From the NCBI GenBank assembly GCA_016869215.1, contig VGEP01000002.1, forward strand, positions 124,001 through 188,000: 64,000 nt of DNA, in the 5' to 3' direction. Position numbers and translations under genes: made by a program. Of the stretch, positions 46,052-62,561 are shown piece after piece. The notes beneath the pieces were generated by a model. It was not told where the DNA came from, did not search any database, and worked only from the letters and a program-made list of their open reading frames with translations. Numbering within the stretch: the first letter of the stretch is position 1; every line of letters starts with the position of its first letter. The stretch is from Alphaproteobacteria bacterium. GTDB taxonomy: Bacteria; Pseudomonadota; Alphaproteobacteria; Rhizobiales; Xanthobacteraceae.

Positions 46052-47293
46052 TTAGATGCTGGCGGGTCGTTCGACCTTGTAGAGGCCAACGTTTATGGCC
46101 TCGGTCTCGAACCCTGCCTGACAGTAAGCCAGGTAGTATTCCCAGGTTCTTTTGAAACGCTCATCAAATCCGAGAGCTTCGATCGCAGGCCACGACTCCA
46201 GAAAGCGCTGCCGCCATTCCTCCAGCGTGCGCGCGTAACCATCGCCAAACAATTCTTTCCAAATAAGTTTGAGCCCTGATTTAGCCGTTTCCCGTTCGAC
46301 AATCCCCGTCGTCGGCAGCATGCCGCCCGGAAATATGTATTTCTGAATGAAGTCCGGCCTACCACGATAATCTCCAAAACGATCTTCAGCGATCGTAATG
46401 ACTTGCAGTACGCCAACGCCGCCTGGACGCAAACGATCCCTCAGATTCTGGAAATAAGTTGGCCAATAAGCTTCACCGACTGCCTCCAGCATTTCGATCG
46501 AGACGATCCGATCGAAGGTGCCTCGCACATCTCGGTAATCCTGCAAGCGGATATCCGAGCGGCTTTCCAGGGCGCGACCGCGGAGCCGTCGTTGCGTGAA
46601 TTTCAATTGCTCCGCCGACAGTGTCACTCCCATCACTTTACAGTCGTGCCGTTCCAATATTCGCTCAGCAAGGCTGCCCCAGCCACAGCCGATTTCGAGC
46701 ACTTTTTCCCCGCCAGCCAAATCCAGCAGACTTAGCACTCGGTCAAGCTTGGCATCCTGTGCCTGCTCTAGCGTCTGGTTCATTGAAGAAAATAGACCCG
46801 CCGAGTAAGTCATGCCTGGATCGAGCCACTGTTGGTAGAACTCGTTTCCGAGGTCATAGTGGGCGGCAATATTGCGTCGACTTCCGCGGGGTGTATTGCG
46901 ATTCATCGCATGACGCACCCTGAGCCAAAATCGCGGCATCCGCAGGAACTTCAGCGGCTCCACCAAGGCGCTGTTATGGGAAGCAAGCTTGAGGAGCGCG
47001 ACGAGGCTTGAGGACGACCATTCTCCAGCGCTATAGGCTTCTGCGAATCCGATATCCCAGCTGGAAGCTAGGCGCCACAGGCAGCGCCAGCTATGAATGG
47101 TGACTTTCGCCTGCGGTCCAGATCGGCGCCCACTGAACACCAGCCGATCTCCGGCGGGAGTCTCTATCACCAGCTCCCCGCACTCAAGTTCGCCCACCAT
47201 CCGGCGCAAGAACGACTCGGCGACCGAAGCTGAATTGAGAGAAAGTTGCGGATTGATCGATCGATGGACGGTTTTTTGGTGTTGCATGGACAT
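46052..47293 (-). CDS. cfa: Cyclopropane-fatty-acyl-phospholipid synthase family methyltransferase
   Basis: A 413-residue SAM-dependent enzyme acting on unsaturated acyl chains of membrane lipids. The SAM motif is VLEIGCGWGSLAERI (about residue 200), followed by GVTLSAEQLKFTQ and the CFA-type FDRIVSIEMLEAVG and FIQKYIFPGGMLP. In the SigE-ChrR regulons of photosynthetic bacteria such homologues make cyclopropane or methylated (furan-precursor) fatty acids; which one is made here is open. It is the third gene of an operon driven from 49538, 6 bases after the DUF1365 gene. Confidence 0.92.
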   Translation of the reverse strand: MSMQHQKTVHRSINPQLSLNSASVAESFLRRMVGELECGELVIETPAGDRLVFSGRRSGPQAKVTIHSWRCLWRLASSWDIGFAEAYSAGEWSSSSLVALLKLASHNSALVEPLKFLRMPRFWLRVRHAMNRNTPRGSRRNIAAHYDLGNEFYQQWLDPGMTYSAGLFSSMNQTLEQAQDAKLDRVLSLLDLAGGEKVLEIGCGWGSLAERILERHDCKVMGVTLSAEQLKFTQRRLRGRALESRSDIRLQDYRDVRGTFDRIVSIEMLEAVGEAYWPTYFQNLRDRLRPGGVGVLQVITIAEDRFGDYRGRPDFIQKYIFPGGMLPTTGIVERETAKSGLKLIWKELFGDGYARTLEEWRQRFLESWPAIEALGFDERFKRTWEYYLAYCQAGFETEAINVGLYKVERPASI

Positions 47294-47299
47294 GACGCT

Positions 47300-48088
47300 C
47301 TAATCCGCAGTTACAGAAGATGCGGTGACAATCGTTGCGGGTCGCTTGGGCGGCAGTGGTCGTTGGCGTAAGCCAATGCCCTTTGCCCACAACCGCAATG
47401 CTTCCCAGTGGATCGCCGCGATCACCTTGATCGTGATCGCAGGGATTTTCAGGAACACAGACATCAAATTACGGTCTGTTAAATCACCTCGAAGCCCGGC
47501 CAAAACGGCATTCAGCACTGGCTCTTGGCATGAACTGGCGCATATACCGACAGCGATGCGCTCGTCTGGACCTGTGATCCGGAAGTCATAGCGCATGTCC
47601 ATGTCCAGGAAGGGCGAAACGTAAAAGAGCTTTTGGGAGCACTGATAAAGAGCAGCGTTCCGCCCCTCAACCCGGATGACGTAGCTGTGACGCTCTCCGA
47701 ACGTGTTGTGTACTTGGTACACCACCGCGGCAAGCGATGCATCGGCCCGGTAGCAGAAGTAAATGCTGATCGGATTGAAGCAATAGCCAAGCGCGCGCGG
47801 CATGCAGAGCAGTTGAATTCGGCCACCGGCAAGATCGACTTGAGCTTCGGCGAGTTGGCGCTCGATCTGAGTTCGTATTGGTGTGGCGGTTCCGTCGCCA
47901 TGGTCGGCGTCATAAAAGCTGAAAATATTGGAGCGGTTATAGGAGAACCATCGCAGCTTGTTCGAAAGCTCATCAAGCTCATCGAGGTCGAGCAGAAACC
48001 AGAACGCGCGGTATCGAAAGCGATGCACGCGTGGACGCAGCCGCCGATGCATGACCGAGCCGACATAGAGCGACGAGCGCAGCGTCAT
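47300..48088 (-). CDS. DUF1365 family protein
   Basis: A 262-residue DUF1365 protein: LYVGSVMHRRLRPRVHRFRYRAFWF at the start (read in parts), LCMPRALGYCFNPISIYFCY and VYQVHNTFGERHSY. Its biochemical role is unknown, but it is a constant partner of the FAD oxidoreductase and CFA-type methyltransferase in ChrR-controlled clusters, so a role in fatty-acid modification is likely. The frame is open 67 codons upstream; the ATG at 48088 overlaps the preceding stop by four bases (ATGA). Confidence 0.92.
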   Translation of the reverse strand: MTLRSSLYVGSVMHRRLRPRVHRFRYRAFWFLLDLDELDELSNKLRWFSYNRSNIFSFYDADHGDGTATPIRTQIERQLAEAQVDLAGGRIQLLCMPRALGYCFNPISIYFCYRADASLAAVVYQVHNTFGERHSYVIRVEGRNAALYQCSQKLFYVSPFLDMDMRYDFRITGPDERIAVGICASSCQEPVLNAVLAGLRGDLTDRNLMSVFLKIPAITIKVIAAIHWEALRLWAKGIGLRQRPLPPKRPATIVTASSVTAD

Positions 48089-49437
48089 GTCTGCCACTCG
48101 GCTTCTTTCGTGTCTGCCGTTCTTGCTGTGAGGACGATCCGTCCGGACTCGTTTGGCACCTGCCAGGGTCGTCGCACGTGGCCCAGTTGCTCGGCGACGG
48201 CGAGGCCAGCCTGCAGACCGTCTTCGTGAAAGCCTGCGCCGAAATAAGCTCCGCAAAACCACGTATTTCGATCGCCTTGCAGGAGCCATAGTTTTCGTTG
48301 CGCGGCGATGGCGCTGGCGTCGAAGATGGGATGATCGTAGACCTCGCTATGGAGCAATGTTCCAGCGCGCGGCGGCCGTGGCGGATTGAGGGTTACGAAC
48401 AGAGGCTTTGCGCTCTGGATGTTCTGCAGGCGGTTCGTCCAATAGGTCACGCAAACACTGTCGCTGGCGACATCCCGGGAGCCGATGTAGTTCCAGCTCG
48501 ACCAGACGGCGCGTCGCTTGGGCATAAAGCTCTCGTCGGTATGCAGCACAGCGAGATTACGGCTGTAGCGGAATGAACCGAGCAGAGTCTGCTCCCCAGC
48601 GCTTGGGTCTGCGAGCACCTTGAGAGATTGGTCGGCATGGCTCGCCATGACGACGTGATCATAACGTTCCGATTGACCAGTTGTATCGGTGACGACAATG
48701 CCGCCATTGATGCGACGCACTTCACGGACGCCCGTATCCAGCCTGATCCGATCTGCAATCGACGTAGTCAGCCGTTCCACATAGTTGCGGCTGCCGCCGA
48801 CGACGGTCTCCCATGCGGGGCGTCCACTTAACTGCATCAAGCCGTGATTGTCGTGAAAGCGGATAAAGGCCGCGGCTGGATACGACAGCATTTCTGCTGG
48901 TGTTGCCGACCAGATCGCGCTTGCCATCGGCAGCAAATGATCGTCGCGAAAGGCATCGCCATACTGGCCTTTCACAAGGTAGTCGCCGAGGCTGATCTGC
49001 TCATCTTCCATCTGCGCAATATTGAGCGGAGCCTGCCGATAAAAGCGGAGCAGATCCGCAAGCATCGACCAGAACCGGGGGCGGATCAGGTTGATGGGCT
49101 GGCCGAACACGCCCGACATTCCGCTCCCGGAGTATTCGAGCTCACCGCCATCCATCGACACGCCAAAGGACATTTCCGACAGCTGGGTCGGAACCTTCAG
49201 AAGTTCGAACAAGGCGGTCAGGTTGGGGTAGGTGCGCCGATTGAAGACAATGAAGCCGGTGTCGACAGCGATGCCCTGTCCGCTGACCGATGCTACGACG
49301 GTATTGGAATGACCCCCGACCCGATCCGCGCGCTCGTAGACCGTCACATCATGGCGCTGGCTTAGAAGCCAGGCTGCAGACAATCCAGAAATTCCGGTCC
49401 CAACGACCGCAATCTTGAGGCGAATATCGGCGGTCAT
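48085..49437 (-). CDS. FAD-dependent amine-oxidase-type oxidoreductase
   Basis: A 450-residue flavoprotein with an N-terminal GTGISGLSAAWLLSQRHDVTVYE dinucleotide fold (read as GTGISGLSAAWLL and VTVYE), GGHSNTV and a C-terminal FCGAYFGAGFHEDGL. It belongs to the NAD/FAD-binding desaturase-like proteins next to DUF1365 and CFA-type genes; dehydrogenation of a modified acyl chain is a reasonable guess based on furan-fatty-acid work in Rhodobacter. It is first in its operon. A TGATCC-N16-CGTT promoter lies 74 bases upstream, divergent from the sigma factor gene. Confidence 0.9.
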   Translation of the reverse strand: MTADIRLKIAVVGTGISGLSAAWLLSQRHDVTVYERADRVGGHSNTVVASVSGQGIAVDTGFIVFNRRTYPNLTALFELLKVPTQLSEMSFGVSMDGGELEYSGSGMSGVFGQPINLIRPRFWSMLADLLRFYRQAPLNIAQMEDEQISLGDYLVKGQYGDAFRDDHLLPMASAIWSATPAEMLSYPAAAFIRFHDNHGLMQLSGRPAWETVVGGSRNYVERLTTSIADRIRLDTGVREVRRINGGIVVTDTTGQSERYDHVVMASHADQSLKVLADPSAGEQTLLGSFRYSRNLAVLHTDESFMPKRRAVWSSWNYIGSRDVASDSVCVTYWTNRLQNIQSAKPLFVTLNPPRPPRAGTLLHSEVYDHPIFDASAIAAQRKLWLLQGDRNTWFCGAYFGAGFHEDGLQAGLAVAEQLGHVRRPWQVPNESGRIVLTARTADTKEAEWQT

Positions 49438-49510: not shown

Positions 49511-49538
49511 GAAACGACAAATCCAATCGATTGGATCA
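49511..49538 (-). promoter_or_regulatory. SigE (ECF) promoter for FAD oxidoreductase-DUF1365-cfa operon
   Basis: Read on the minus strand: TGATCC, 16 bases, CGTTTC. The -35 element is that of RpoE-ChrR promoters. Expected transcription start is near 49504, giving a leader of about 67 bases to the start at 49437. Confidence 0.85.
49521..49536. promoter_or_regulatory. Perfect 16-base palindrome overlapping the SigE promoter
   Basis: ATCCAATC-GATTGGAT is fully symmetric and covers part of the -35 element and the spacer of the minus-strand SigE promoter. A bound protein would block the promoter. It could be an operator for a second regulator; chance cannot be excluded. Confidence 0.45.
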
Positions 49539-49579: not shown

Positions 49580-49607
49580 TGATCCAAAAAGTGACCCGCA
49601 CCGTTGT
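49580..49607 (+). promoter_or_regulatory. SigE (ECF) autoregulatory promoter of sigE-chrR
   Basis: TGATCC, 16 bases, CGTTGT on the plus strand, 42 bases from the divergent site. Expected start of transcription is near 49614, about 105 bases before the sigma factor ATG. Autoregulation is usual for this sigma group. Confidence 0.85.
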
Positions 49608-49719
49608 TTAGTTTATGCAGCTTGCTGTCCAAGGTCATTCCTCGCCCATAGCGGCCATGGTGCGTTATTGGCGGCGACCAGTGTCGTTGGAGCGTCGAGC
49701 GCGGAGGAATGCCCCAAAT

Positions 49720-50301
49720 ATGCCCTCTGAAAACGAGGCAAACTCAGACACCGTGCAATGGGGCGGCCTGATATCTGCGATCGCGCAGCATCAGGATCGT
49801 GCAGCCTTTGCGGCCTTGTTCGAGCATTTTGCCCCCCGGATCAAAGCATTCATGCAGCGTTCGGGAGCCAGCGAGGCGAACGCAGAGGAACTGGCCCAGG
49901 AGACCATGCTGGCGGTCTGGCGGAAGGCCGCATTGTTCGACCCGCAGAGTACAGGTGCAGCGGGCTGGATTTTCACGATCGCTCGTAACCTGCGTATCGA
50001 TTACCACCGTCGCGAAAGCCGTGGCGGGATGGTTGAGGCTTCAGACGTCGAAATCGAGTTCCTGATTGACGATTCGCCTCAGCCGGACTCCATCCTGGCC
50101 ACCTCTCAATCCGAGGATCGAGTGCGCTCAGCGCTGACAAAGTTGTCGGACGACCAAATGCGCGTCGTCGAACTTTCGTTCTTTGAGGAGAAAGCGCACG
50201 CGGAGATTGCAGAGATTTTGGAAATTCCACTGGGTACGGTCAAGTCGCGGCTTCGCCTGGCCATGACCCGTCTTCGCAATCTGCTGGGTGAACTATCATG
50301 A
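49720..50301 (+). CDS. rpoE: ECF sigma factor, RpoE/SigE group partnered with ChrR
   Basis: A 193-residue ECF sigma factor. Region 2 (AFAALFEHFAPRIKAFMQRSGA, then AEELAQETMLAVWRKA) and region 4 (LSDDQMRVVELSFFEEKAHAEIAEIL, then PLGTVKSRLRLAMTRLR) are complete. It is followed with ATGA overlap by a ChrR-type zinc anti-sigma factor, which defines the group that answers singlet oxygen. The frame is open upstream to 49615; the ATG at 49720 fits the family start, with GGAGGA 12 bases before. Its probable promoters (TGATCC-N16-CGTT) are found at six places nearby. Confidence 0.93.
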   Translation: MPSENEANSDTVQWGGLISAIAQHQDRAAFAALFEHFAPRIKAFMQRSGASEANAEELAQETMLAVWRKAALFDPQSTGAAGWIFTIARNLRIDYHRRESRGGMVEASDVEIEFLIDDSPQPDSILATSQSEDRVRSALTKLSDDQMRVVELSFFEEKAHAEIAEILEIPLGTVKSRLRLAMTRLRNLLGELS

Positions 50302-50951
50302 GCATTGAACATCATCCTACCGACTCGATGTTGGCGGCCTTTGCGGCGGGCACGCTCGACCACGGACAGCACATCGCGATTGCGACGCATCTGGTATCTT
50401 GCCCGCAATGCCGAACCTTCACGCGATCCATGGAGCAAGTCGGCGGTGCCGTGCTGACTAGCCTTTTACCGGCTGCAATGTCCAACGACGCGCTGGCGAA
50501 GGTCGAAGCGCGGTTGAACAAACCGATGCGGCCGGCGACGATGGCAGAGACGGCGCCCACTGTGCCCGAGGCCGAGGTTCCTGGGCTACCGAAGTTCTTG
50601 CGTCGCTACCAGTTTGGCAATTGGAAGTGGATTGCGCCATCGGTGCACCTGCAACCCATTGTTCTGCCCTATGACAGCGATACCCGAGTATTTCTGCTAA
50701 AGTCCGGGCCGGGGACCAGGATGCTTCAACATACGCACACTGGGATTGAGATGACTTGCGTTCTCTCCGGAGCCTTCAGCCAGGATGGCAGTCACTATGG
50801 GCCGGGTGACTTCGACCTGGGTGATGACACTGTCGATCACCTGCCCGTCGTCGATCCGGGGCAAGATTGCGTTTGTCTTGTGGCGATGCAGGGTGATCTT
50901 CGACTTCACGGTTTGATCGGACGGATGGTGCAACCGTTTGTTCGTGTGTGA
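50298..50951 (+). CDS. chrR: ChrR-type zinc-binding anti-sigma factor
   Basis: A 217-residue anti-sigma factor. The N-terminal zinc site shows H6, H31, C35 and C38 (HLVSCPQCR), exactly the pattern of Rhodobacter ChrR; the C-terminal cupin has H145, H147, E151 and H181 (QHTHTGIEMTC), the second metal site needed for the response to singlet oxygen and organic peroxides. It holds the sigma factor inactive and is degraded on stress. The start overlaps the sigma factor stop by four bases. All ligands are conserved, so it should be functional. Confidence 0.94.
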   Translation: MSIEHHPTDSMLAAFAAGTLDHGQHIAIATHLVSCPQCRTFTRSMEQVGGAVLTSLLPAAMSNDALAKVEARLNKPMRPATMAETAPTVPEAEVPGLPKFLRRYQFGNWKWIAPSVHLQPIVLPYDSDTRVFLLKSGPGTRMLQHTHTGIEMTCVLSGAFSQDGSHYGPGDFDLGDDTVDHLPVVDPGQDCVCLVAMQGDLRLHGLIGRMVQPFVRV

Positions 50952-50960: not shown

Positions 50961-51797
50961 TTGAGCCTCATTGAGCTCGCGCTCTGCGCGTTCACGGTTG
51001 CTGCGGCGCTATGTCTAATCATGGCGTCAACCTGGTATGTCCAGCGCAGCAGCGGAAAAACCGGCTGGATCGACACAACCTGGTCACTTGGCGTCGGCGG
51101 GGTTGGTTTCATCGCAGCAGTTTGGCCGCTCGAACCGGGCTGGCCGCATTGGCGGCAGATAATCGTGGCAGTTCTTGCCGCATCCTGGTGTCTGCGGCTT
51201 GGCCTTTATATTGCCGAGCGCAATCGTGCCGCAGTCGATGATCCGCGCTATCGTAACTTGATCATCCAATGGGGCAGTGACGCATCGCGTCGGATGTTCT
51301 GGTTTCTGCAGTCGCAGGCGTTGGTCGGAGTTATTCTTGCGGTTTCGATCGCACTCTCGGCACACAATCCAAATCCTAAGTGGCGCATGCAAGACCTGAT
51401 CGGACTGGCAGTCCTAATAGTTGCCATCGCCGGGGAAGCAATTGCCGACCATCAGTTGCGAGCGTTCAAGAACGATCCGGCCAACCACAACGCTGTTTGC
51501 GATGTTGGACTATGGAGGTGGTCGCGACATCCAAACTATTTCTTCGAATGGCTGACCTGGGTGGCTTATCCAATCATTGCCATCGATTTGTCCGGCCACA
51601 ACCCATTAGGATGGTCCGCGCTGGCTGCGCCGCTTTGTATGTACTGGGTACTCGTTCACGTATCAGGCATCCCACCGCTTGAGGAACATATGCTGCGTTC
51701 TCGCGGCGATTTGTTTCGAACTTACCAGAAACGCACCAGGGCTTTCTTTCCCTTGCCGGTCTTTAATTCGCCCTCGCGACGGCGAGTAAAGGAGTGA
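50961..51797 (+). CDS. DUF1295 membrane protein (steroid-reductase-like fold)
   Basis: A 278-residue integral membrane protein of the DUF1295 family with about seven helices. Typical motifs are GWIDTTWSLGVG, FWFLQSQALV, and the C-terminal GLWRWSRHPNYFFEWLTWVAYP and PPLEEHMLRSRGDLFRTYQKRT (read in parts). The family resembles steroid 5-alpha-reductases and isoprenylcysteine methyltransferases. It starts at a TTG 9 bases after chrR and is the third gene of the sigE operon; DUF1295 genes recur in ChrR regulons, so lipid modification under photo-oxidative stress is expected. Confidence 0.9.
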   Translation: MSLIELALCAFTVAAALCLIMASTWYVQRSSGKTGWIDTTWSLGVGGVGFIAAVWPLEPGWPHWRQIIVAVLAASWCLRLGLYIAERNRAAVDDPRYRNLIIQWGSDASRRMFWFLQSQALVGVILAVSIALSAHNPNPKWRMQDLIGLAVLIVAIAGEAIADHQLRAFKNDPANHNAVCDVGLWRWSRHPNYFFEWLTWVAYPIIAIDLSGHNPLGWSALAAPLCMYWVLVHVSGIPPLEEHMLRSRGDLFRTYQKRTRAFFPLPVFNSPSRRRVKE

Positions 51798-51834: not shown

Positions 51835-52470
51835 TTAATAGACAAGCACAGGTGTCCCGCCGACGAAGCTCCGATCATCGATCTGTCGAACAAGAAACTC
51901 GGCGGCGTCTGCACGAGAGATCATGCCATTCCGCCACTGCGATGGCTTATCAAGAATCTTGTAAAGACCCGTTCGCTTTCCACCAGTTAAGACGCCAGGC
52001 CGCGCAATGGTCCAATCGAGTGAGCTAGACTTTATCAGACGCTCCTGCACACTCTTGTCATCGTAGGCGCGACCAAAAACCAACTGGAACGGCACGCGCT
52101 GAAGGCAACTGATGCTTTCGCGGCTGTCGCCTGCCCCGAAGCCAGTGACGCAGATCAGCCGCTTCGGTCCTTGGCTTTCCATAGCACCGACCAATGTGCG
52201 CGTGGCGTCGGAGAAAAGGCTTACCGGCCGAAACAAATCTCCTAGAGAAATGCCTAGGGTCTGGATCACGACGTCTATCCCGTCCAGCGCTGCCTCAATG
52301 TCTTTCTTGACCAGCGCGTCTCCGCGGACTTTCTCCAGGCTTGGATTAGACAAACCGATCGCCGCCGCCGAACGAGCCAAGGCGCGCACTTGGTGTCCGC
52401 CTTCCAATGCCTGCCGTGTGGTCTCAAGCCCAATGCCCTTGCTGGCTCCGATGATCAAGACATGCGCCAT
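51835..52470 (-). CDS. NAD(P)-binding (NmrA/SDR-like) protein
   Basis: A 211-residue Rossmann protein with VLIIGASKGIGLETTRQALEGGHQVRALAR at the start (read as IIGASKGIGLET) and later ICVTGFGAG and WTIARPGVL, typical of atypical SDRs without the YxxxK pair in standard place. It may be an NAD(P)H-dependent reductase or a redox sensor. It lies downstream of the folE-DUF2177-reductase genes on the same strand and may be part of that SigE-driven unit; the ATG at 52470 gives the proper beta-strand start. Confidence 0.83.
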   Translation of the reverse strand: MAHVLIIGASKGIGLETTRQALEGGHQVRALARSAAAIGLSNPSLEKVRGDALVKKDIEAALDGIDVVIQTLGISLGDLFRPVSLFSDATRTLVGAMESQGPKRLICVTGFGAGDSRESISCLQRVPFQLVFGRAYDDKSVQERLIKSSSLDWTIARPGVLTGGKRTGLYKILDKPSQWRNGMISRADAAEFLVRQIDDRSFVGGTPVLVY

Positions 52471-52552
52471 GCTGATACTCCATGCAGGAACGACAAGTGT
52501 GGCGCCATCCCACAAGAACTAGGTGTGCAGGTGATACGCACAAACAACCCGT

Positions 52553-53140
52553 TCAAATAGTCGCACCAGATCGTGCGTTCTCCTGTTGTTTTCCCTGTTG
52601 CCAGCTGGTCACTGTGACTCCGCGAGCCACATCCAACAGTCGTTGCGGCCCCGGTATTAGTCCGCTCGAGGCAAGGACGTCCTCAAGGCTCCATTTTGGT
52701 ACTTGAGGAAAAACCGGGCGCCCTGCTGGCAAGCGAAGCCCCGACCGCCGTGATAGGTGAAACAAGTCGTACCGGCGCAGAAAAAGGCCGTAGATCTCCG
52801 TACCTCCCAGGATTGCGACGGTCCCGTTCCTAACCCCCAGCATCTCAGCGGCCTTCTCCCACGGAAGTCCTGCAGGGTTCCAAAACAGTGCATGCCCGAA
52901 ATTCTCAGCTGGCGCGACCCTCTCGATCTGTCGGGTAGCAATCAACCGTCGCCGCTTTGGCGAGTGTGCTTGGTTCTCATTCGAGTTGCGGCCATGAACA
53001 ATGAGATCGACACGGTCGAGGGAGTCCGAGAGGAAATGCTGATCAGCCTCAACCACGAGTGCAGACGGCATGACGCCAGAGGCATCAGCCAGCATTCCAT
53101 CCTCAGAAACGATGGCAAAGCCTTCCACGCGAATTGACAT
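52553..53140 (-). CDS. Dihydrofolate-reductase-family protein (RibD C-terminal-like)
   Basis: A 195-residue protein with a DHFR/RibD-type fold: FAIVSEDGMLADASGVMP at the start, LIVHGRNSNENQ, and the NADPH motif AILGGTEIYGLFLRRYD. It lacks several DHFR folate residues by eye, so pteridine or flavin-precursor reduction is as likely as folate reduction. It lies 13 bases after the DUF2177 gene and shares a unit with folE, which suggests it reduces a pterin made from the FolE product. Confidence 0.8.
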   Translation of the reverse strand: MSIRVEGFAIVSEDGMLADASGVMPSALVVEADQHFLSDSLDRVDLIVHGRNSNENQAHSPKRRRLIATRQIERVAPAENFGHALFWNPAGLPWEKAAEMLGVRNGTVAILGGTEIYGLFLRRYDLFHLSRRSGLRLPAGRPVFPQVPKWSLEDVLASSGLIPGPQRLLDVARGVTVTSWQQGKQQENARSGATI

Positions 53141-53153: not shown

Positions 53154-53564
53154 TTAGGAGAGGCTGACGAGCTTGGTCACAAGCCAGAAAGTTATTGACG
53201 CCGAAATTGCGCCAAGAATTGTTCCCCACGCAACGTCAACCAACGTCAATTGCAGAGTCCAGTTGCGCAGCGTCGCATGGTTCGTCAAATCATAGGTCGC
53301 ATAAGTAAAGAAGCCAAAGAGCGCCCCGTAGACAGCCGCCGTCGACATGGATCCGCTTTTTAAGGCAGGCTGAATTGCGAATATCAGCAGACCAATAGGA
53401 TAGACGGCATAGAACAAGATCGCCGGCGGGAGGTTCACACCGGAAATGGCAATGTCTCCGAGCGTTGGCCGGTACAAGCGAGACGCCATTGCCCCCAGCC
53501 ACATCATGTCAGCTGCGACAAAGACTGCAAGCGCGACGCCATAACCGACCAAGTTCACCAGCAT
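53154..53564 (-). CDS. DUF2177 membrane protein
   Basis: A 136-residue protein with four hydrophobic helices of the DUF2177 family: VGYGVALAVFVAADMMWLGAM, LYRPTLGDIAI, ILFYAVYPIGLLIFAI and FFTYATYDLTNHATLRNW (a family hallmark), then DVAWGTILGAISA. Function is unknown. It lies between folE and the reductase gene, 35 bases after folE; homologues occur near photolyase and SigE-controlled genes. The ATG at 53564 removes a non-membrane antisense stretch. Confidence 0.85.
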   Translation of the reverse strand: MLVNLVGYGVALAVFVAADMMWLGAMASRLYRPTLGDIAISGVNLPPAILFYAVYPIGLLIFAIQPALKSGSMSTAAVYGALFGFFTYATYDLTNHATLRNWTLQLTLVDVAWGTILGAISASITFWLVTKLVSLS

Positions 53565-53599
53565 AACGGCCTCGTACTGTCTGCCTTCAGCCCGACCAA

Positions 53600-54232
53600 T
53601 TACTCGACACCATTGGAATGCACCATCGACATAAACTCCTGTCGGGTCATTGCATTGTCGCGGAAGCATCCCAGCATTCGGCTGGTCACCATATCCGTGC
53701 CGTGCATGTGAACACCGCGGCTGGACATGCAATGATGAGCGGCCTTAATCACAACCGCGACGCCTTGCGGCTTCAGAACTTTTTCGATCGTGTTTGCTAC
53801 CTGCGCTGTCAGGCGTTCCTGGATTTGCAGCCTTTTCGCGTAAGCCTCTACAACGCGCGCCAGTTTGGATATGCCCACGACGCGTCGATTCGGTACGTAA
53901 GCGACCCAGGCACGGCCAATAATCGGCGCAACGTGATGTTCGCAATGGCTTTCAAACGGAATGCCCCGCAGGACGACCATTTCGTCATAGCCGTCGGTTT
54001 CTTCAAAGGTCTTCTGCAGGATTTGTTCGGGATCCTGTCGATATCCAGCGAAATATTCCTGGAAAGCCCGTGCCAGGCGGCTAGGGGTTTCGCGTAGCCC
54101 ATCCCGGTCAGGGTCTTCCCCGATCCAGCGAAAGACATCCCTAAAGGCCTGCTCGACCTTCGACTGAGATGTAGCATCCTCATTTGAGCTGGAAATGGCG
54201 GAAGACCGGTTCAGGCAAACAATTTCGTTCAT
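53600..54232 (-). CDS. folE: GTP cyclohydrolase I (FolE)
   Basis: FolE converts GTP to dihydroneopterin triphosphate, the entry to folate and other pterins. The 210-residue protein has zinc ligands in FESHCEHHVAPI and in AHHCMSSRGVHMHG, and the GRETPSR-like DGLRETPSRLARAF. It is complete and type IA. The start at 54232 lies about 58 bases after the predicted start of a SigE-type transcript. Being divergent from a photolyase gene and in a stress unit, it may supply the folate or pterin antenna of photolyase; a general folate role is also possible. Confidence 0.94.
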   Translation of the reverse strand: MNEIVCLNRSSAISSSNEDATSQSKVEQAFRDVFRWIGEDPDRDGLRETPSRLARAFQEYFAGYRQDPEQILQKTFEETDGYDEMVVLRGIPFESHCEHHVAPIIGRAWVAYVPNRRVVGISKLARVVEAYAKRLQIQERLTAQVANTIEKVLKPQGVAVVIKAAHHCMSSRGVHMHGTDMVTSRMLGCFRDNAMTRQEFMSMVHSNGVE

Positions 54233-54296: not shown

Positions 54297-54324
54297 AGAA
54301 CGATGCCCGGGTTCCGATGGATCA
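54297..54324 (-). promoter_or_regulatory. SigE (ECF) promoter for folE operon
   Basis: Minus strand: TGATCC, 16 bases, CGTTCT. Transcription should start near 54290 and run into folE-DUF2177-reductase and probably the SDR-like gene. It faces away from the photolyase gene. Confidence 0.83.
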
Positions 54325-55946: not shown

Positions 55947-56495
55947 TTATTCCTGAGACCGGATCGGCAACGGCAAGATGCCTCGCTGATCCTCTGGAGG
56001 ATTGAGCGCGGCGGTCGGCAAGGCACGGCCACGCGAATCGTGCCAGGAGTTCAAGGCCCAACGAACTGACGGAAACGCTATGTCATTCCAGGGAATATCA
56101 TTCCAGCTAAACTTCTTGACCTCCAAACTTTCTGGGCCCGCCCCGTAACCAGGCTCTGCCCAGCGCGCTCGAAAGATAACCTGTACCTGGCCGAGGCGTG
56201 CGATCGAGTAGACTGCCAGCACACCGTCAATGCTGATCCGCGCCCGCGCCTCTTCCCAGGCTTCACGCTGCGCGCCCTCGCTCGCGGTCTCACCCATTTC
56301 CATGTAGCCAGCAGGAATCGTCCAGAATCCTGCGCGCGGCTCTATGGCGCGGCGGCAAAGAAGCACCCAATCGCCTTCCGCGATGATACTACCGACGACC
56401 ACCTTGGGATTCTCGTAGGCGACGAAATTGCAATCGGAGCAGACAAGCCGCTCCCGGTCATCGCCTTCGGGAATGCGTCGGACTAATCGGGACAT
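55947..56495 (-). CDS. NUDIX hydrolase
   Basis: A 182-residue NUDIX protein with the box GYMEMGETASEGAQREAWEEARARI, complete for G-x5-E-x7-REUxEE (given here in parts as GYMEMGETAS and REAWEEA). A partial zinc knuckle CSDC at the N-terminus resembles NADH pyrophosphatases such as NudC-like proteins. It should hydrolyse oxidised or signalling nucleotides. It starts 61 bases after the DCC protein gene on the same strand. ATG at 56495 (MSRLVRRIPEG) is preferred to one at 56552. Confidence 0.86.
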   Translation of the reverse strand: MSRLVRRIPEGDDRERLVCSDCNFVAYENPKVVVGSIIAEGDWVLLCRRAIEPRAGFWTIPAGYMEMGETASEGAQREAWEEARARISIDGVLAVYSIARLGQVQVIFRARWAEPGYGAGPESLEVKKFSWNDIPWNDIAFPSVRWALNSWHDSRGRALPTAALNPPEDQRGILPLPIRSQE

Positions 56496-56556
56496 CTCTC
56501 TGAATACCCAGGATCTGGCCAAAGCACAATTTTTCTCACCTTTACCGCACAAGTGT

Positions 56557-56958
56557 CTATTCGAAAGACATTGGCTTTCTTTGGGCTTGGAGCTTCCTAA
56601 AGGCCCACGCCAATGCTGGTCGCACCGGCAGGAACAACCGATACCCGTGTTCGAGTAACGTCATGATGCCAGGAAGTTCAGCGATACGAGCCGCCCATCG
56701 CCATCGTGGCAAATGTCGCCATATGCTCACGAACGCAGCGGCACCGGAAATGAGCTGCCCGTCGCTGCGTCTCACATGGAATCGGGACATAGCAGTGTGT
56801 CTCTCCAGATCCGGCTGAAGCAACTGGTCGGCCTGCGACACATCAAGAAAGTGGAGCTTTTCAGCACCGATTTGCTTCCTGTAATGATCTATCTCCGCCC
56901 GGCAGAGCGGACAGGAGCCATCAAAATACACGGTCAGGCCAGAAGTTTTAGACGACAC
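56557..56958 (-). CDS. DCC (DUF393) thiol-disulfide oxidoreductase-like protein
   Basis: A 133-residue DUF393 protein; the family is named for the motif D-x-x-C-P-x-C, here FDGSCPLCRAEI near the start, followed by LHFLDVSQAD and SRFHVRRSDGQLISGAAAFV and a C-terminal hydrophobic part. It is predicted to be a thioredoxin-like redox protein. The start is a GTG at 56958 with AGAGGG upstream. A second DCC gene of the island is at 60872; the two proteins are about half identical by eye and may have arisen by duplication. Confidence 0.87.
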   Translation of the reverse strand: MSSKTSGLTVYFDGSCPLCRAEIDHYRKQIGAEKLHFLDVSQADQLLQPDLERHTAMSRFHVRRSDGQLISGAAAFVSIWRHLPRWRWAARIAELPGIMTLLEHGYRLFLPVRPALAWAFRKLQAQRKPMSFE

Positions 56959-57205
56959 GACCGGCCCTCTGTTTCTGCTGGATGGTTGCGGCTGGAGCTG
57001 CCTCGTCCCAAGCGCCAACCTCCGTTCGTCGCAAGCCCAGCAGCAAACTCTCAAAGGAACGTTGCGCGCGGCGTCCCTCTACAAGGGCATCACGCCAACG
57101 GTGAGGCGAGGAGAAAAATGACTGTTCGTAAACTCCGGTACGGGCCTGGCATCGCGCTGCGAGCATCACCAAGCGATTAACCGCAGAATCCACGGTCAAA
57201 ACCAC
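56948..57205 (-). CDS. Possible small protein between CBS and DCC genes
   Basis: An 85-codon frame starting at a GTG inside the end of the CBS gene and overlapping the DCC start by 11 bases. The central part (SPHRWRDALVEGRRAQRSFESLLLGLRR) looks protein-like and would fill an otherwise empty 237-base gap with translational coupling. No family is recognised, so it may be fortuitous. Confidence 0.35.
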   Translation of the reverse strand: MVLTVDSAVNRLVMLAARCQARTGVYEQSFFSSPHRWRDALVEGRRAQRSFESLLLGLRRTEVGAWDEAAPAATIQQKQRAGRVV

Positions 57206-57711
57206 TTGACGATGGCCAACACCAAAACCGCGTATGCCAACATCCCTGTAACCAAGATGGGCATCTGAGACGCGCCTCCTTTAAGCGTATCACGCGTCTT
57301 TTCTTTGAGCAGACTCAGCAGGTCTGGCCACGTGAAGGATACAAAATCACCCTGCGACATGATGTTCACCAGGCGGCCTTGTTCATCCACTACTGGCAAA
57401 TGTCGGAACCGTTCATTCGACATTTGACGTAGCCAGTCTATGACCTCGTCATCCGCACGACCTGTCCTGACTTCGCTTGTCATGATGGCTGAAAGCGGAG
57501 TTGTTTTGGGGTCTAGGGCTTTGTTCAGAAGTCGACGCATGAGGTCGCGCTCGGTCACGATACCTTTGACCTTCATCTCATCATCTACGATAACCACCGA
57601 TCCGATATTCTTCTCCGACATCGTCTTCACGGCCGTAGGAACGACATCGTCGCTTCGAAGCGAGAATGGAACCGGCTTACTTCTGTATTCTGGCCTGTCT
57701 TTGATTTTCAT
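57196..57711 (-). CDS. CBS-domain pair protein with C-terminal membrane anchor
   Basis: A 171-residue protein with two CBS domains (about 20-75 and 80-135; GSVVIVDDEMKVKGIVTERDLMRR, then FRHLPVVDEQGRLVNIMSQGDFV, read in parts) and a C-terminal helix LVTGMLAYAVLVLAIVKWF. CBS pairs bind adenine nucleotides and may sense energy or redox state. It has its own SigE-type promoter 70 bases upstream. The genes downstream (DCC, NUDIX) may belong to the same transcript. Confidence 0.88.
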   Translation of the reverse strand: MKIKDRPEYRSKPVPFSLRSDDVVPTAVKTMSEKNIGSVVIVDDEMKVKGIVTERDLMRRLLNKALDPKTTPLSAIMTSEVRTGRADDEVIDWLRQMSNERFRHLPVVDEQGRLVNIMSQGDFVSFTWPDLLSLLKEKTRDTLKGGASQMPILVTGMLAYAVLVLAIVKWF

Positions 57712-57780: not shown

Positions 57781-57808
57781 ATAACGAAACCAGCGCTCGT
57801 TTGGATCA
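57781..57808 (-). promoter_or_regulatory. SigE (ECF) promoter for CBS gene
   Basis: Minus strand: TGATCC, 16 bases, CGTTAT. It lies in the gap between the 3' end of the iron-sulfur photolyase gene and the CBS gene, with expected start near 57773 and a leader of about 60 bases. Confidence 0.83.
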
Positions 57809-57889: not shown

Positions 57890-59458
57890 TTATGATTTCG
57901 GACCGGCCTGGGGAATGCTGGCTCGACCCGGTGTCCGGCTGATCAGACCGGTAAAGCGCCGCGCATCAAGCAAGATTTGCCGCGTACGAGCGGCCGGCAT
58001 GGCTTTCAGCTGTCGATATGCCATTGTCAGTCGCGGATTATTTTGCAGGCGCTCCTGGTTTCGCTTCAGAAAGGCCCAATAAAGATAATTGAAGGGACAC
58101 GCATCTGCGCCGGACTTCTGCCGCACGTCGAAACGGCACTTTTTGCAGAAGTCCGACATGCGATCGATGTAAGCGCCGGAGGCAGCATACGGTTTCGAAG
58201 CGAGCAGACCGCCGTCCGCAAATTGCGACATTCCAAAGGTATTAGGGAGTTCGACCCATTCGAAAGCATCGGTATAAACCGCCAGATACCATTCAGAAAT
58301 CGCGCTCGGTTTGACGCCGAGCAAGAGCGCAAAGTTGCCCGTTACCATGAGGCGCTGTATGTGGTGCGAATACGCATAACGGCGCGTGTCACCGATGGCC
58401 TGCTTCAGGCAGTTCATGTCCGTGTCGCCGCTCCAGTAGAACGAAGGCAGCGGTCGCCGCGCACCAAGTGCGTTCATGGTCGCGTAGCCCGGCATGTTGT
58501 GCCAGTAGACGCCTCGGACATACTCCCGCCATCCCAAGATCTGGCGAATGAACCCTTCGACGCAGTTCAACGGCGCCCGACCGGTGCGATATTCAGATTC
58601 CGCGCGGTCACAAACCTCCCGCGCCGTCAGAAGTCCGACATTGAGATATGGCGAAAGCGCCGAGTGAAAAACGAACGGGTCGTCTTGTTTCATGGCGTCC
58701 TGGTAGTCCCCGAACTTAGGCAGGCCATTTGCTATGAAATCTTCAAGCGCCTGAAGCGCCTGGCTTCGTGTTACTGCCCAACCGAATGACTCGAGATCGC
58801 CAAAATAATCCGGGAATCCCCGCCGCACTAAAGACAGAACTTCATCGGTGATGGCATCGGGTTTGAAACGCCGACGTTTGGGGATTGAAGCAGCTTCGGG
58901 CAGACTGCGCCGGTTCTGCGTGTCGAAGTTCCAATGGCCGCCTACTGGCGACGCGCCATCCATCAGGATCCGATGCTCGCGCCGCATCTCGCGGTAGAAG
59001 TACTCCATCCGCAACGCCTTCCGGTCGTTTGCCCAGCGCGCGAACCGACCCCGCGAGGCGAAGAACCGATCATCCTCACGGATTTCGACCGGAAGATCGA
59101 GCAGGGTCTCCCATTTCTGCATGGCCTCCAGGACACGCCATTCACCAGGCTCGGTCACGATTACCCGCGTGGCACGGTGGCGCTGAACAGCACGGACCAC
59201 CTCCCCAGTAAACGAACCGGTGTTGTTCCTGTCATCAAGCTCGACGTAGTCAACGGTAATGCCGTCGGCTCTCAGGTCTTTCGCAAAATGCCGCATGGCC
59301 GACAGGACGAAGACTATCTTCTGACGATGATGGCGGACGTACCGCGTTTCCTCCGCAGCCTCGATCATGAGCACGACATCGCTGGCGAGGTTCAATCCTC
59401 TCAACGCCGATACGGATCGCGTTAAATGGTCGCCAAGAACGACTCGAAGCGTGGTCAT
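57890..59458 (-). CDS. Iron-sulfur bacterial cryptochrome/(6-4) photolyase (PhrB/CryB type)
   Basis: A 522-residue FeS-BCP protein. The four [4Fe-4S] ligands are C350 (MNCLKQA), C438 and C441 (FCKKCRF) and C454, the same positions as in Agrobacterium PhrB. Family motifs include VLGDHLT at the start, GWREYVRGVYW and SHHIQRLMVTGNFALL. Known members repair (6-4) photoproducts and use FAD plus dimethylribityllumazine; Rhodobacter CryB also affects regulation. It lies 151 bases after the SDR gene and is the last gene of a unit that begins with the second DCC gene. Confidence 0.93.
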   Translation of the reverse strand: MTTLRVVLGDHLTRSVSALRGLNLASDVVLMIEAAEETRYVRHHRQKIVFVLSAMRHFAKDLRADGITVDYVELDDRNNTGSFTGEVVRAVQRHRATRVIVTEPGEWRVLEAMQKWETLLDLPVEIREDDRFFASRGRFARWANDRKALRMEYFYREMRREHRILMDGASPVGGHWNFDTQNRRSLPEAASIPKRRRFKPDAITDEVLSLVRRGFPDYFGDLESFGWAVTRSQALQALEDFIANGLPKFGDYQDAMKQDDPFVFHSALSPYLNVGLLTAREVCDRAESEYRTGRAPLNCVEGFIRQILGWREYVRGVYWHNMPGYATMNALGARRPLPSFYWSGDTDMNCLKQAIGDTRRYAYSHHIQRLMVTGNFALLLGVKPSAISEWYLAVYTDAFEWVELPNTFGMSQFADGGLLASKPYAASGAYIDRMSDFCKKCRFDVRQKSGADACPFNYLYWAFLKRNQERLQNNPRLTMAYRQLKAMPAARTRQILLDARRFTGLISRTPGRASIPQAGPKS

Positions 59459-59609: not shown

Positions 59610-60308
59610 CTACCATGGCACCGTCTCGCCGCGATGATCAAAGAATCCGCCGGAATCCTGAGGGTTCAACCGCTCCACAACGTCAAGCAGGCGCGTCGCT
59701 GCCTGATCGGGTGTCTGGACCTCAAGGTCCTGCCTGGCAAAGCGGGAGGACAACCGTGTTTCCACAGTGCCGGGATGCAAAGCGACGCATATTGCCTGCG
59801 GATGGGTCCGTGCCAGCTCGATTGCAGCGGTGCGGACCAATTGATTGAGTGCGGCTTTTGAGGCGCGATAGCTGTACCAGCCGCCAAGGCGATTGTCGCC
59901 GATGCTGCCAACCCGCGCCGACAGCGTTGCAAACACGGTGCGCTTGCGACGCGGCAAGAGTGGGAGCACATGCTTCATGATCAATGCTGGGCCAATGGCG
60001 TTCAACGCGAAAGCTCGGCCCAGCGCTGCCACGTTGATCGCCTTCCAGCTTCTCTCGGGTGCTTGGTTTTCGTCATGTAAGAAGCCGGTCGCGTCGATGA
60101 CCAGATGAACCTCACCCGCTGCCGATGCATAAGTCGCGGCAGTGTTGATTGTGTCCTCGTCAAGCAAATCCATCGGGGGCTGGCTGGTCCGGCATAATTC
60201 GATGACCTGCTCAAAGCGTGATCTTGTGCGCAATTGCCGGACGAGCGCACTTCCGATGCCGCCGCTGGAGCCAAATATCACGGCAAGTGCGGGCGTCGAC
60301 GACGCCAT
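59610..60308 (-). CDS. Short-chain dehydrogenase/reductase (CsgA-like)
   Basis: A 232-residue SDR: nucleotide motif VIFGSSGGIGSALVRQL near residue 10, catalytic LGGWYSYRASKAALNQL with the Y-x-x-x-K pair, and a normal C-terminus. The alternative cluster sequence GSSGGIG is frequent in SDRs next to photolyase and cry genes of alphaproteobacteria. The substrate is unknown. ATG at 60308 was chosen for the standard beta-strand start. It lies 78 bases after dps and probably shares its transcript. Confidence 0.89.
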   Translation of the reverse strand: MASSTPALAVIFGSSGGIGSALVRQLRTRSRFEQVIELCRTSQPPMDLLDEDTINTAATYASAAGEVHLVIDATGFLHDENQAPERSWKAINVAALGRAFALNAIGPALIMKHVLPLLPRRKRTVFATLSARVGSIGDNRLGGWYSYRASKAALNQLVRTAAIELARTHPQAICVALHPGTVETRLSSRFARQDLEVQTPDQAATRLLDVVERLNPQDSGGFFDHRGETVPW

Positions 60309-60386
60309 CACGGTAGTACTGGTTTGCCGAAGCAGCCATGGGCGTGCGAACACGATTCCCAGACCACGATTTTGAAGCCCATATGA

Positions 60387-60875
60387 TCAGGCCTTGCGCT
60401 CTTCGTGCGCCTCAAGAAACCAGAGTGCCTTGTCCAGCGACCGCGAGAAGCCCGTCAGGATATCAGCGGTGTCCGCATCACCTGCTTCTTCAGCTGTAGC
60501 GATTGCATTACGGGTCGAGTTGGCAAGCCTTCCGTAACGCTCGCTTAGTGCAGTGAGGTGATCGTCGACGCGAACCAGGTCATCGGGATAGGGGCTCAGT
60601 TCGGAGTTGTTTGCCACGACCTGGCTGCTGCCCAGCGCGATCCCTCCAAGCTGGACGATACGCTCGGCCATGGTGTCGACATGGCCATCGATATCCGCAC
60701 GAAGACCGTCTAGCATCGCGTGAACCGCGATGAATGTCGCACCACGCAGGTTCCAGTGCGCCTGTTTGGTCATCAAAGCCAGATCGATCGCGTCTGCGAC
60801 CCGGGCATTGAGAACCGCACAGATTGTTGTCTTGGTATTGGATGGAAGATTGTTTCGTGTCGGGTGGAAGTTCAT
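60387..60875 (-). CDS. dps: Dps-family ferritin-like DNA-protection protein
   Basis: A 162-residue Dps. The intersubunit ferroxidase residues lie in TKQAHWNLRGATF and MLDGLRADIDGHVDTMAERI, all present. Dps stores iron using peroxide and shields DNA, so it suits a photo-oxidative stress unit. The N-terminus is short (MNFHPTRNNLPSNTK) with few lysines, so DNA binding may be weak. Its ATG overlaps the DCC stop by four bases; expression should follow the SigE promoter at 61554-61527. Confidence 0.93.
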   Translation of the reverse strand: MNFHPTRNNLPSNTKTTICAVLNARVADAIDLALMTKQAHWNLRGATFIAVHAMLDGLRADIDGHVDTMAERIVQLGGIALGSSQVVANNSELSPYPDDLVRVDDHLTALSERYGRLANSTRNAIATAEEAGDADTADILTGFSRSLDKALWFLEAHEERKA

Positions 60876-61309
60876 TTTCTCTCTCCTTGCTCAAGTCGCA
60901 TAGTGTGCCGGCCTTCTACGGCAGCAGTGGAATGCCGTTGGCGCACTAAAGTTGGCTGGCAAAAGGCTTTGAGGAGCCGCGAAATCGCTGGCCGAACCGG
61001 CAAGAACAGCCGATAGGCCATCTTAAGAAGGAGCATCGCTCCCGGTGCCTCGGCGGCATATGCAATACAGCGCCAGCGTGGCAGCAGGCTCCAAAGGCTG
61101 ACGAAAGCCGCGGCCCCGGAAAGCAACGCTCCATCGCACAGTCGGACGTGAAAGCGTGACATCAACGCACTACGGTCGAGTTCAGGCTCCAACACGACAT
61201 CAGCCTGCGAAACATCCCTGAACCGAAGACGTTCGTGCATATCCATCCGGCGGTAGTGCCCAATCTCGGCGCTGCAAAGCGGACAGGACCCATCATAGAA
61301 AATGGTCAT
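60872..61309 (-). CDS. DCC (DUF393) thiol-disulfide oxidoreductase-like protein, second copy
   Basis: A 145-residue DCC protein with FYDGSCPLCSAEIGHYR and RFRDVSQADVVLEPELDR, close to the protein at 56557. The ATG at 61309 places the first strand correctly; the frame is open to 61393, which gives a less usual extension. It is coupled with dps through an ATGA overlap. The transcript from the upstream SigE-type promoter would have a leader of about 210 bases with a strong inverted repeat. A redox partner role for the photolyases or Dps is possible but not shown. Confidence 0.87.
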   Translation of the reverse strand: MTIFYDGSCPLCSAEIGHYRRMDMHERLRFRDVSQADVVLEPELDRSALMSRFHVRLCDGALLSGAAAFVSLWSLLPRWRCIAYAAEAPGAMLLLKMAYRLFLPVRPAISRLLKAFCQPTLVRQRHSTAAVEGRHTMRLEQGERK

Positions 61310-61439
61310 AAGACCATCGCCGGTGCATGGGCGATGTTGATGAGCTCGAGCCTGTCCGACAATTTTTGCGTTCGCCATCATCGTAACGTCCACGTTAACG
61401 ACCTGGTTGCACAGTTGTTCTTACGACCCGACCTAAATT

Positions 61440-61526: not shown

Positions 61527-61554
61527 GAAACGCAGCTCCGATTAATTTGGATCA
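61527..61554 (-). promoter_or_regulatory. SigE (ECF) promoter for DCC-dps-SDR-photolyase unit
   Basis: Minus strand: TGATCC, 16 bases, CGTTTC. It is identical in both elements to the promoter of the FAD oxidoreductase operon. Expected start near 61520; genes from 61309 down to 57890 follow in one direction. Confidence 0.82.
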
Positions 61555-61834: not shown

Positions 61835-61862
61835 TGATCCATGACCTCGTTTTCGTCGTTTA
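61835..61862 (+). promoter_or_regulatory. SigE (ECF) promoter for small membrane protein and regulator
   Basis: Plus strand: TGATCC, 16 bases, CGTTTA. Expected start near 61869, only about 27 bases before the ATG at 61896, which has AAGGAGC in front. The pair 61527-61554 / 61835-61862 is divergent and 280 bases apart. Confidence 0.82.
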
Positions 61863-61895
61863 AATATCGAATTCGATCAATGAAGGAGCACTGCG

Positions 61896-62210
61896 ATGAT
61901 AGCAATCCCGACTTTGGTCCGGGCTCTGAAAGCCAACTACTTTCTGATCATGGAAGCCGATCGAAATCCTCTATGGAGGCTACCGCCGGCGCAGCGCTTC
62001 CAGACCATGATCTACCTGGCAGTCATGTGGACCACCATTTTCTGCGCGGCCTTTGGACTATGGTTCTGGTACGGCGAACTCATCGTCGCGCATATGCTCA
62101 TCATCCTTGGTTTTATCCTAACCAGAGTTACGTTTGCTGGCGCGGAGCGATCGGCAATGACGCCAAGGTCGGTCAGGCCACGGGCAGTCCGCCATTTAAA
62201 CGGGCGATAA
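61896..62210 (+). CDS. Small two-helix membrane protein of the SigE island
   Basis: A 104-residue protein with two adjacent hydrophobic helices (about 37-56 and 60-80: MIYLAVMWTTIFCAAFGLWF and LIVAHMLIILGFILT) and a basic C-terminus. I know no family for it. The start has a clear AAGGAGC ribosome site, and a SigE-type promoter lies directly upstream, so it is a genuine stress gene candidate. The following regulator starts one base after its stop region (TAAATG). Confidence 0.75.
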   Translation: MIAIPTLVRALKANYFLIMEADRNPLWRLPPAQRFQTMIYLAVMWTTIFCAAFGLWFWYGELIVAHMLIILGFILTRVTFAGAERSAMTPRSVRPRAVRHLNGR

Positions 62211-62561
62211 ATGAGAACCTGCAGAAAAGATTTCCCGGGCGTCGACCGTCAGACCAGTGATCGCTTGGCTCTGGATGTGAGAACGGACGAGGAAATGATG
62301 GTAGGAGCGTTAGCAGAATTGCGTCGGACTGCTCCGGTGAGCCTGGAAGCGATTGGATATCTGCTGGGCTCTGATCCGGCCCAGGTATCCCGTTATCTGA
62401 AGGGCTCATGCAGCATTTCGCTTACAAACTACGTACGGATCGCCAGAGCACTTGGATATCGATGCAAGATTATTTTCGAAGAGGCCGACAACAGCACGCT
62501 GAAATTAAATCCATTGGAAGAGCTAAAAATTACGACTCACCAAGTCCATCATCGTAGATGA
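62211..62561 (+). CDS. Small helix-turn-helix protein downstream of the SigE-controlled membrane gene
   Basis: A 116-residue protein with a Cro/XRE-like helix-turn-helix in the middle (VSLEAIGYLLGSDPAQVSRYLKGSCSISL, read as IGYLLGSDPAQVSRYLKG). The ATG at 62211 follows the preceding TAA directly; an internal ATG near residue 29 is an alternative. Because both genes sit behind one SigE-type promoter, it may be a secondary regulator in the stress response. Base composition is lower in GC than the main genome. Confidence 0.65.
   Translation: MRTCRKDFPGVDRQTSDRLALDVRTDEEMMVGALAELRRTAPVSLEAIGYLLGSDPAQVSRYLKGSCSISLTNYVRIARALGYRCKIIFEEADNSTLKLNPLEELKITTHQVHHRR

Follow-up and report, generated by a model that had tools for sequence, protein, structure and literature searches.

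A candidate local SigE-ChrR (ECF11) stress regulon with a switched -10 promoter base matched to a changed sigma loop

The SigE-ChrR gene pair and six promoter sites

The stretch of DNA analyzed here, referred to as the window, comprises 64,000 nucleotides (nt) of contig VGEP01000002.1 from an alphaproteobacterium of the family Xanthobacteraceae (assembly GCA_016869215.1). Positions 46052 to 62561 hold 20 genes arranged around a pair that encodes an extracytoplasmic function (ECF) sigma factor of the ECF11 type, SigE (the SigE/RpoE of ChrR systems), and the anti-sigma factor ChrR. The sigma gene, with regions 2 and 4 (Pfam Sigma70_r2 and Sigma70_r4), is followed directly by chrR, the two adjacent genes occupying 49615-50951. 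The sigma open reading frame (ORF) is open from ATG 49615, with the conserved domain part beginning at Met 49720 (49720-50301, plus strand), and its closest solved chain is the RpoE/ECF SigE of 2q1z (2q1z/2z2s; 2.4e-41 versus 3.5e-19 for the next chain). ChrR (50298-50951, plus strand) combines a zinc anti-sigma domain and a cupin domain (PF12973), scoring 194.9 bits against TIGR02451 (cut-off 124.5) and 208.2 bits against the narrower NF051881, which is under the cut-off of 300. Eight zinc-ligand positions, H6, H31, C35 and C38 followed by H145, H147, E151 and H181, are invariant in 12 aligned ChrR rows. In excerpts of the literature, on which all comparisons with published systems below are based, the ligands of Rhodobacter sphaeroides ChrR are at 6, 31, 35 and 38 in the anti-sigma domain and 141, 143, 147 and 177 in the cupin domain (PMC6852236), the offset of four in the cupin numbering being a product of our own alignment. 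The specificity loop of the window SigE reads FDPQSTGAAGW, its Ser taking the place of an Arg in R. sphaeroides SigE (2q1z); none of Arg, Lys, Gln or Leu stands at this position in the window sigma factor, and just ahead of the loop Trp a Gly stands in for the Thr that is common there.

An exact search of the window for TGATCC-N16-CGTT returned six sites within 12.35 kb. These predicted SigE promoters lie at 49513-49538 (minus strand), ahead of ufaD-ufaO-ufaM and divergent from sigE; at 49580-49605 (plus), ahead of sigE-chrR itself, where a TGATC-type -35 element thus precedes the sigma factor's own gene, as in autoregulation; at 54299-54324 (minus), ahead of folE and the genes for a DUF2177 protein, an unnamed protein and a short-chain dehydrogenase/reductase (SDR)-like protein; at 57783-57808 (minus), ahead of a CBS-domain gene followed by DCC1-like and Nudix genes; at 61529-61554 (minus), ahead of a DCC1-like gene, dps and an SDR gene, perhaps extending to a photolyase-like gene; and at 61835-61860 (plus), ahead of genes for a small protein and a helix-turn-helix protein. 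All six sites reported by the initial annotation exist exactly, except that their far ends had been placed 2 bases too far, the motif being 26 bases long. The distance from the -10 element to the likely start codon is 9 nt for sigE, 35 for the small protein, 66 for folE, 71 for the CBS gene, 75 for ufaD, and 135 for the DCC1-like gene. Two of the sites, those of folE and the small protein, overlap or lie within the longest ORF of the gene concerned, with plausible ATG codons downstream at 54232 and 61896.

The expectation by chance is 0.13 sites in the window, and six were reached in none of 100 shuffles. Genome-wide, in the search that the initial annotation had proposed, the pattern occurs 17 times in 5.15 Mb. 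An A follows TGATCC in all six local sites, and this TGATCCA form occurs only seven times in the genome, that is, at the six local positions and once on contig C28. We read the C28 site as a coding coincidence, because the frame that holds it is strongly coding-like and its 26 letters recur almost unchanged in 7 of the 12 relatives searched. Outside the cluster the pattern has 11 sites, of which 7 were assigned to strongly coding-like frames and 4 were undecided. The shuffles, together with the genome-wide rarity of the TGATCCA form, rule out a chance origin of the six sites. The canonical form, TGATCC-N16-CGTA, has six matches in the genome and was not found by motif search anywhere in the 64-kb window, where 6/6 sites carry CGTT.

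The sigE mRNA looks leaderless, in that its ATG, 9 nt past the -10 element, lies about where transcription should start. Of 200 distinct loci that have such a promoter, 126 show an in-frame ATG 8-10 nt after the -10 element and 133 show one at 3-15 nt, compared with 59 ATGs at 3-15 nt in the two other frames taken together, one of them at 8-10 nt. This reading gives SigE an extension of ~35 residues before the start of the solved R. sphaeroides chain.

Genes behind the sites

As they are oriented, the six sites could drive 19 of the 20 genes, phrA being the exception. The proposal of the initial annotation that nearly all genes between 46 and 62.6 kb form a single regulon is partly supported; the sequence bears out a local group of stress genes with matching sites in front of them. 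Divergent from sigE on the minus strand is a putative operon for furan fatty acid synthesis, with genes for a UfaD-like FAD oxidoreductase (48085-49437; PF01593), its role taken from PMC7380195 and a Pseudomonas syringae table, a UfaO-like DUF1365 protein (47300-48289; PF07103, 9.9e-81), whose longest ORF overlaps ufaD and whose true start is probably at ~48090, and a UfaM-like methyltransferase of the cyclopropane-synthase family (46052-47293; PF02353, 9.1e-85). UfaM, UfaD and UfaO are described as furan-fatty-acid enzymes, with UfaO carrying DUF1365 (PMC7380195). On the other side, 3' of chrR, is a gene for a DUF1295 protein (50961-51797, plus strand; Pfam), which is found near sigma-chrR in many relatives.

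The folE run, also on the minus strand, starts with the gene for a type I GTP cyclohydrolase, taken from ATG 54232 (53600-54232; PF01227, 1.4e-72, and TIGR00063 over its cut-off, both matches obtained on the longer ORF, which would overlie the promoter). It continues with genes for a DUF2177 membrane protein (53154-53732; PF09945, 2.7e-42), a protein of 195 residues with no Pfam or NCBIfam match (52553-53140), and, last of the run, an NAD(P)H-binding SDR-like protein (51835-52515; PF13460, 2.2e-39). Judged by eye only, the 195-residue product has a dihydrofolate-reductase/RibD-like appearance. Next to this run is phrA, encoding a class I photolyase/cryptochrome-like protein (54460-55896, plus strand; PF03441/PF00875; best solved chain, the DNA photolyase 4u63, 3.5e-160).

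The outer part of the cluster comprises, on the minus strand, genes for a CBS-domain protein (57196-57711; PF00571), a DCC1-like thiol-disulfide oxidoreductase (56557-57054; PF04134) and a Nudix protein (55947-56552; PF00293, PF14803), and further upstream those for a second DCC1-like thiol-disulfide oxidoreductase (60872-61393; PF04134), a Dps-like ferritin-family protein (60387-60875; PF00210), a short-chain dehydrogenase (59610-60353; PF00106) and a (6-4) photolyase-like protein of the PhrB/CryB (FeS-BCP) kind (57890-59458; PF04244; 9hnk, 2.3e-182; PhrB 4dja, 2.7e-179; CryB 3zxs, 9.2e-171). The ufa and sigE operons have SigE-type sites of their own, whereas the photolyase-like gene at 57.9 kb could be reached by read-through only. 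On the plus strand are genes for a small protein, probably membrane-bound as judged by eye, with no Pfam or NCBIfam match over a cut-off (61896-62210), and a helix-turn-helix protein (62211-62561; PF13560, at its cut-off). It could be argued that only the core, namely sigE-chrR, the ufa operon and the folE run, is driven by SigE, with the sites at 57.8, 61.5 and 61.8 kb inactive or belonging to another sigma factor, given that conservation of sites was checked at the core genes only. However, the outer sites are exact, share the extra A and are correctly oriented, and the genome has just one further site of this form; we consider such a restricted regulon improbable.

The gene content of the cluster is familiar from known systems. 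The RpoE-ChrR system of R. sphaeroides likewise has a sigma factor beside ChrR, the zinc ligands, a TGATCC -35 element with N16, and furan-fatty-acid, photolyase and GTP cyclohydrolase genes in its target set (PMC6852236, PMC7074977, PMC5036791, PMC7380195). In Rhodobacter, however, the cyclohydrolase that is an RpoE target is FolE2 (PMC7074977), whereas that of the window is FolE of type I (PF01227), and the R. sphaeroides targets lie at several places as judged by locus tags, in contrast to the single cluster of the window. Similarly, PSPTO_1043 of P. syringae and RpoE2 of Shewanella share the TGATCC-like -35 element, the ChrR partner, and photolyase, cfa/ufa, amine oxidase and short-chain dehydrogenase genes among their (predicted) targets (PMC5507510, PMC4336711), but their loci are scattered by tags. 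PhrB, UfaM, FolE and CryB are also co-regulated among the LitR light-inducible genes of Pseudomonas, although there the regulator is of the MerR/LitR type with LOV proteins and not an ECF11 sigma factor (PMC9758184). The excerpt of a paper on sigma factors and reactive oxygen species in Bradyrhizobium deals with EcfQ and EcfF, not with SigE-ChrR.

Clustered sites and the -10 base in related loci

To place the window among its relatives, ChrR was searched for in several genome samples and found in 27 of 61 genomes, in 104 of the 296 genomes of the family sample and, when the ChrR family model was used, in 199 of the 385 genomes of the class sample (135 of them above the cut-off of the model), the window's own genome being included in each count. 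Altogether, 182 regions were fetched; 80 regions came mostly from the family list, with one (G051) from the 61-genome search, and 100 mostly from the top of the class-sample list. A scan of named genomes with a single ChrR query found no relative, and an alignment-based scan kept 80 of 97 loci. With these 80 named loci, among which Bradyrhizobium is the commonest genus, 13 further loci from newly met genomes and the window, the combined set amounted to 274 loci, of which 261 have adjacent sigma and ChrR genes in a profile search (13 dropped) and 238 are distinct (23 rows with identical proteins dropped).

In the first 80 regions, the sigma gene is adjacent to chrR in 77, and the core promoters recur: among 60 relatives in which ufaD is divergent within 900 bp of sigma, both sites are present in 45, one in 14 and none in 1, while a site precedes folE in 8 of the 10 loci with a folE match and DUF2177 in 42 of 63. 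Over the 238 loci, in fetched stretches of 3-20 kb, TGATCC-N16-CGT[AT] sites number none in 18 stretches, one in 53, two in 65, three in 66, four in 29, five in 6, and six in 1, the window. Clustering of the sites is thus a feature of the family, with the window at the upper end, and the compactness stressed in the initial annotation is not peculiar to this genome, since three sites are present in 66 of the 238 loci and four to six in another 36. A uniquely compact regulon was accordingly rejected. A locus from a Bradyrhizobium metagenome-assembled genome (L367) has six CGTT sites in 13.4 kb, its sigma and ChrR being equal to those of a row that was kept.

The -10 difference is more informative than compactness, as it is shared by most of the sigma clade described below and paired with the change in the loop. 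A departure from the Rhodobacter form had been noted in the initial annotation in passing and is confirmed here, and the sequence also supports an ECF sigma-ChrR pair with a promoter form of its own: all six window sites have CGTT, whereas the one printed R. sphaeroides promoter, Pos19, has CGTA (PMC5036791), as do all -10 elements in the parts of the P. syringae (PMC5507510) and Shewanella (PMC4336711) promoter tables that were available. In the first sample (77 loci and the window), the core sites comprise 145 with A and 26 with T at the fourth base, with T concentrated in few lineages, and of the 54 A-only loci, 52 have Arg or Lys as the first variable loop residue, compared with Ser or Thr in 10 of the 12 T-only loci.

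For the 238 distinct loci, we counted sites within 450 bp upstream of sigma. The fourth base is A in 121 sites and T in 3 for Arg loops, A in all 57 for Lys, all 22 for Gln and both for Leu; conversely, Ser loops have 45 T and 10 A, Thr loops 32 T and 3 A, and Ala loops 5 T, 1 A and 2 C, with the remainder divided among Gly (2 T), Ile (1 T), Asn (1 T, 1 A) and Tyr (2 A). Pooled, the Arg/Lys/Gln/Leu group has 202 A and 3 T, compared with 86 T, 17 A and 2 C for other residues, mostly Ser and Thr. Counted per locus (208 with A or T sites), the first group has 135 A-only loci and 3 with T, and the second 65 with T and 5 that are A-only. Loci found after the rule was formed, which come from 13 of 36 newly met genomes (those with loci cut out) and are relatives of earlier ones, agree with it: Ser/Thr loops with 18 T, 0 A and 1 G, and Arg loops with 7 A and 0 T. 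In Bradyrhizobium sp. OK095, an Arg-loop locus with three CGTA sites and a Ser-loop locus with three CGTT sites occur in the same genome.

Alternatively, the base could be set by another sigma residue, or solely by the one that precedes the loop Trp, with Ser/Thr a passenger of the lineage. Several columns follow the clade almost equally well, and within the non-Arg/Lys/Gln/Leu group, sigma factors with Thr at this second loop position have 8 A, 6 T and 2 C, compared with 9 A and 80 T for those with other residues there. Against this stands the observation that Arg/Lys/Gln/Leu sigma factors that lack Thr at the second position remain CGTA (55 A, 3 T). Furthermore, in a column scan of 151 loci of the wider sample, the first loop residue ranks top in accounting for the T fraction among the columns of the window sigma (0.651), and the loop contacts the base in a solved complex. 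We therefore regard control by a different residue as rather unlikely.

A probable single switch of promoter base and loop residue

The structural context comes from other ECF groups. In the open complex of Mycobacterium tuberculosis SigH, the -10 element reads G-11 T-10 T-9, and T-9 is flipped into the specificity-loop pocket, where side chains of Thr and Asn hold it (PMC6411747); in Escherichia coli RpoE, a single flipped-out base is read by the equivalent loop, and exchanging loops transfers the specificity (PMC8103513). The window system resembles both in that a loop of sigma region 2 would read one flipped-out -10 base, but differs in that the change lies inside a single ECF group and goes with a clade. 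In an alignment of our own, based on the preceding GT, the fourth base of CGTA/CGTT was equated with the flipped-out base. These parallels suggest that the loop change may cause the base preference.

In trees built without the loop columns, all non-Arg/Lys/Gln/Leu rows but one fall into a single clade of 75 of the 238 rows (support 91), which includes Bradyrhizobium; the outlier (L201) has no site. A smaller tree, also without loop columns, gives one clade of 26 rows with support 95. The idea of several independent origins of CGTT within the Ser/Thr group, hinted at by separate lineages in a first tree, was dropped: a single group was not rejected by the approximately unbiased (AU) test (p 0.407), and the trees without loop columns recovered one clade. 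As far as these phylogenies indicate, the A-to-T switch probably arose once.

Several observations weigh against a matched switch of base and loop. Because nearly all non-Arg/Lys/Gln/Leu loci belong to one clade, the association rests on about one origin; the large counts therefore mostly reflect common ancestry and do not prove causation. Independent-pairs tests, with too few contrasts, were not significant. In the column scan, the columns next to the top one follow closely (0.608 and 0.571) and track lineage, as expected from shared descent. Two Arg-loop loci, in genomes G027 and G092 (L106 and L138), have CGTT at 2/2 sites each, as does a third (L370) at 1/1; five loci of the clade have only CGTA near sigma; and the promoters of G110, G018 and G014 are mixed. 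Five sigma-ChrR loci of the first sample (L151, L162, L163, L166 and L167) have no TGATCC-N16-CGT site in the fetched stretch. In the window itself, phrA, a usual regulon member, has no TGATCC-N16-CGTT site upstream. It points away from folE here, and in the relative G110 it is co-directional with folE and DUF2177 and sits 3' of them, so that phrA of the window may have left the regulon or be driven otherwise. The G027 and G092 loci form a separate case, perhaps a second route to the same base.

Some of these cases would fit a relaxed use of the -10 element, in which SigE of the clade tolerates A or T and T has spread by drift or AT-leaning mutation: the mixed promoters, the A-only loci inside the clade, and CGTT in the Arg-type G027 and G092. 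Under such tolerance, however, one would not expect T in 6/6 window sites and in most sites of the Ser/Thr-loop Bradyrhizobium loci, nor the separation of the two types in OK095. Moreover, C or G occurs in only 2 of 310 sites at that base near sigma, so the base looks selected. Relaxed recognition thus appears unlikely. The two-type genome of OK095 and the mixed loci, which look like intermediates, add weight beyond shared descent to the matched switch.

The sites, the genes and the clade-wide association are direct observations, and by both its sigma and its anti-sigma factor the window system is an ECF11 member, a variant by its promoter and loop. We put the probability that the window holds a local SigE-ChrR (ECF11) stress regulon with a switched -10 base matched to a changed sigma loop at roughly 70%. 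By homology to R. sphaeroides, ChrR would hold SigE inactive until singlet oxygen or peroxides release it; induction by singlet oxygen is expected on this analogy. SigE-RNA polymerase would then start at the six promoters, transcribing its own operon and the genes for furan-fatty-acid synthesis, folE, and repair and iron storage, with the loop Ser replacing the Arg/Lys/Gln/Leu of canonical ECF11 sigma factors and the promoters carrying T for A at the base read. The change would have occurred in the ancestor of the sigma clade that includes Bradyrhizobium, the promoters of whole regulons following. In its most specific form, a single Arg/Lys-to-Ser/Thr exchange switched the base from A to T once, regulon promoters followed base by base, both forms now exist side by side without cross-talk (e.g., in OK095), and mixed intermediates survive; to this scenario we give even chances.

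How a transcription factor and its many sites change jointly without loss of function is an old question. If our reading is correct, the clade would be a natural case of sigma-promoter rewiring with living intermediates; as it offers the loop and the base in question, relatives with only A, with both and with only T, and one genome holding the two forms, the path is testable by reporter assays. The -10 base looks new relative to the published CGTA promoters of Rhodobacter, P. syringae and Shewanella, in literature searches none of which was aimed at CGTT, and its pairing with the loop is the feature that most merits pursuit. In practice, the ECF11 regulons of the window's genome and of many Bradyrhizobium will escape searches that use the Rhodobacter CGTA motif.

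Two genomes offer further observations. In OK095, another contig than that of sigma (L389; G277, C25) has folE and DUF2177 matches with CGTT sites and, 3 kb away, a divergent CGTT pair. A genome of the same genus as the window (G007) encodes a Tyr-loop sigma factor with three CGTA sites (L101, C68). A second locus of G007 (L388, C364) has trpB (92% identical), ufaD and a divergent CGTT pair, with the sigma gene cut by the contig end before the loop; it looks like the ortholog of the window, so that G007 seems to hold two sigE loci, one of the CGTT and one of the CGTA type.

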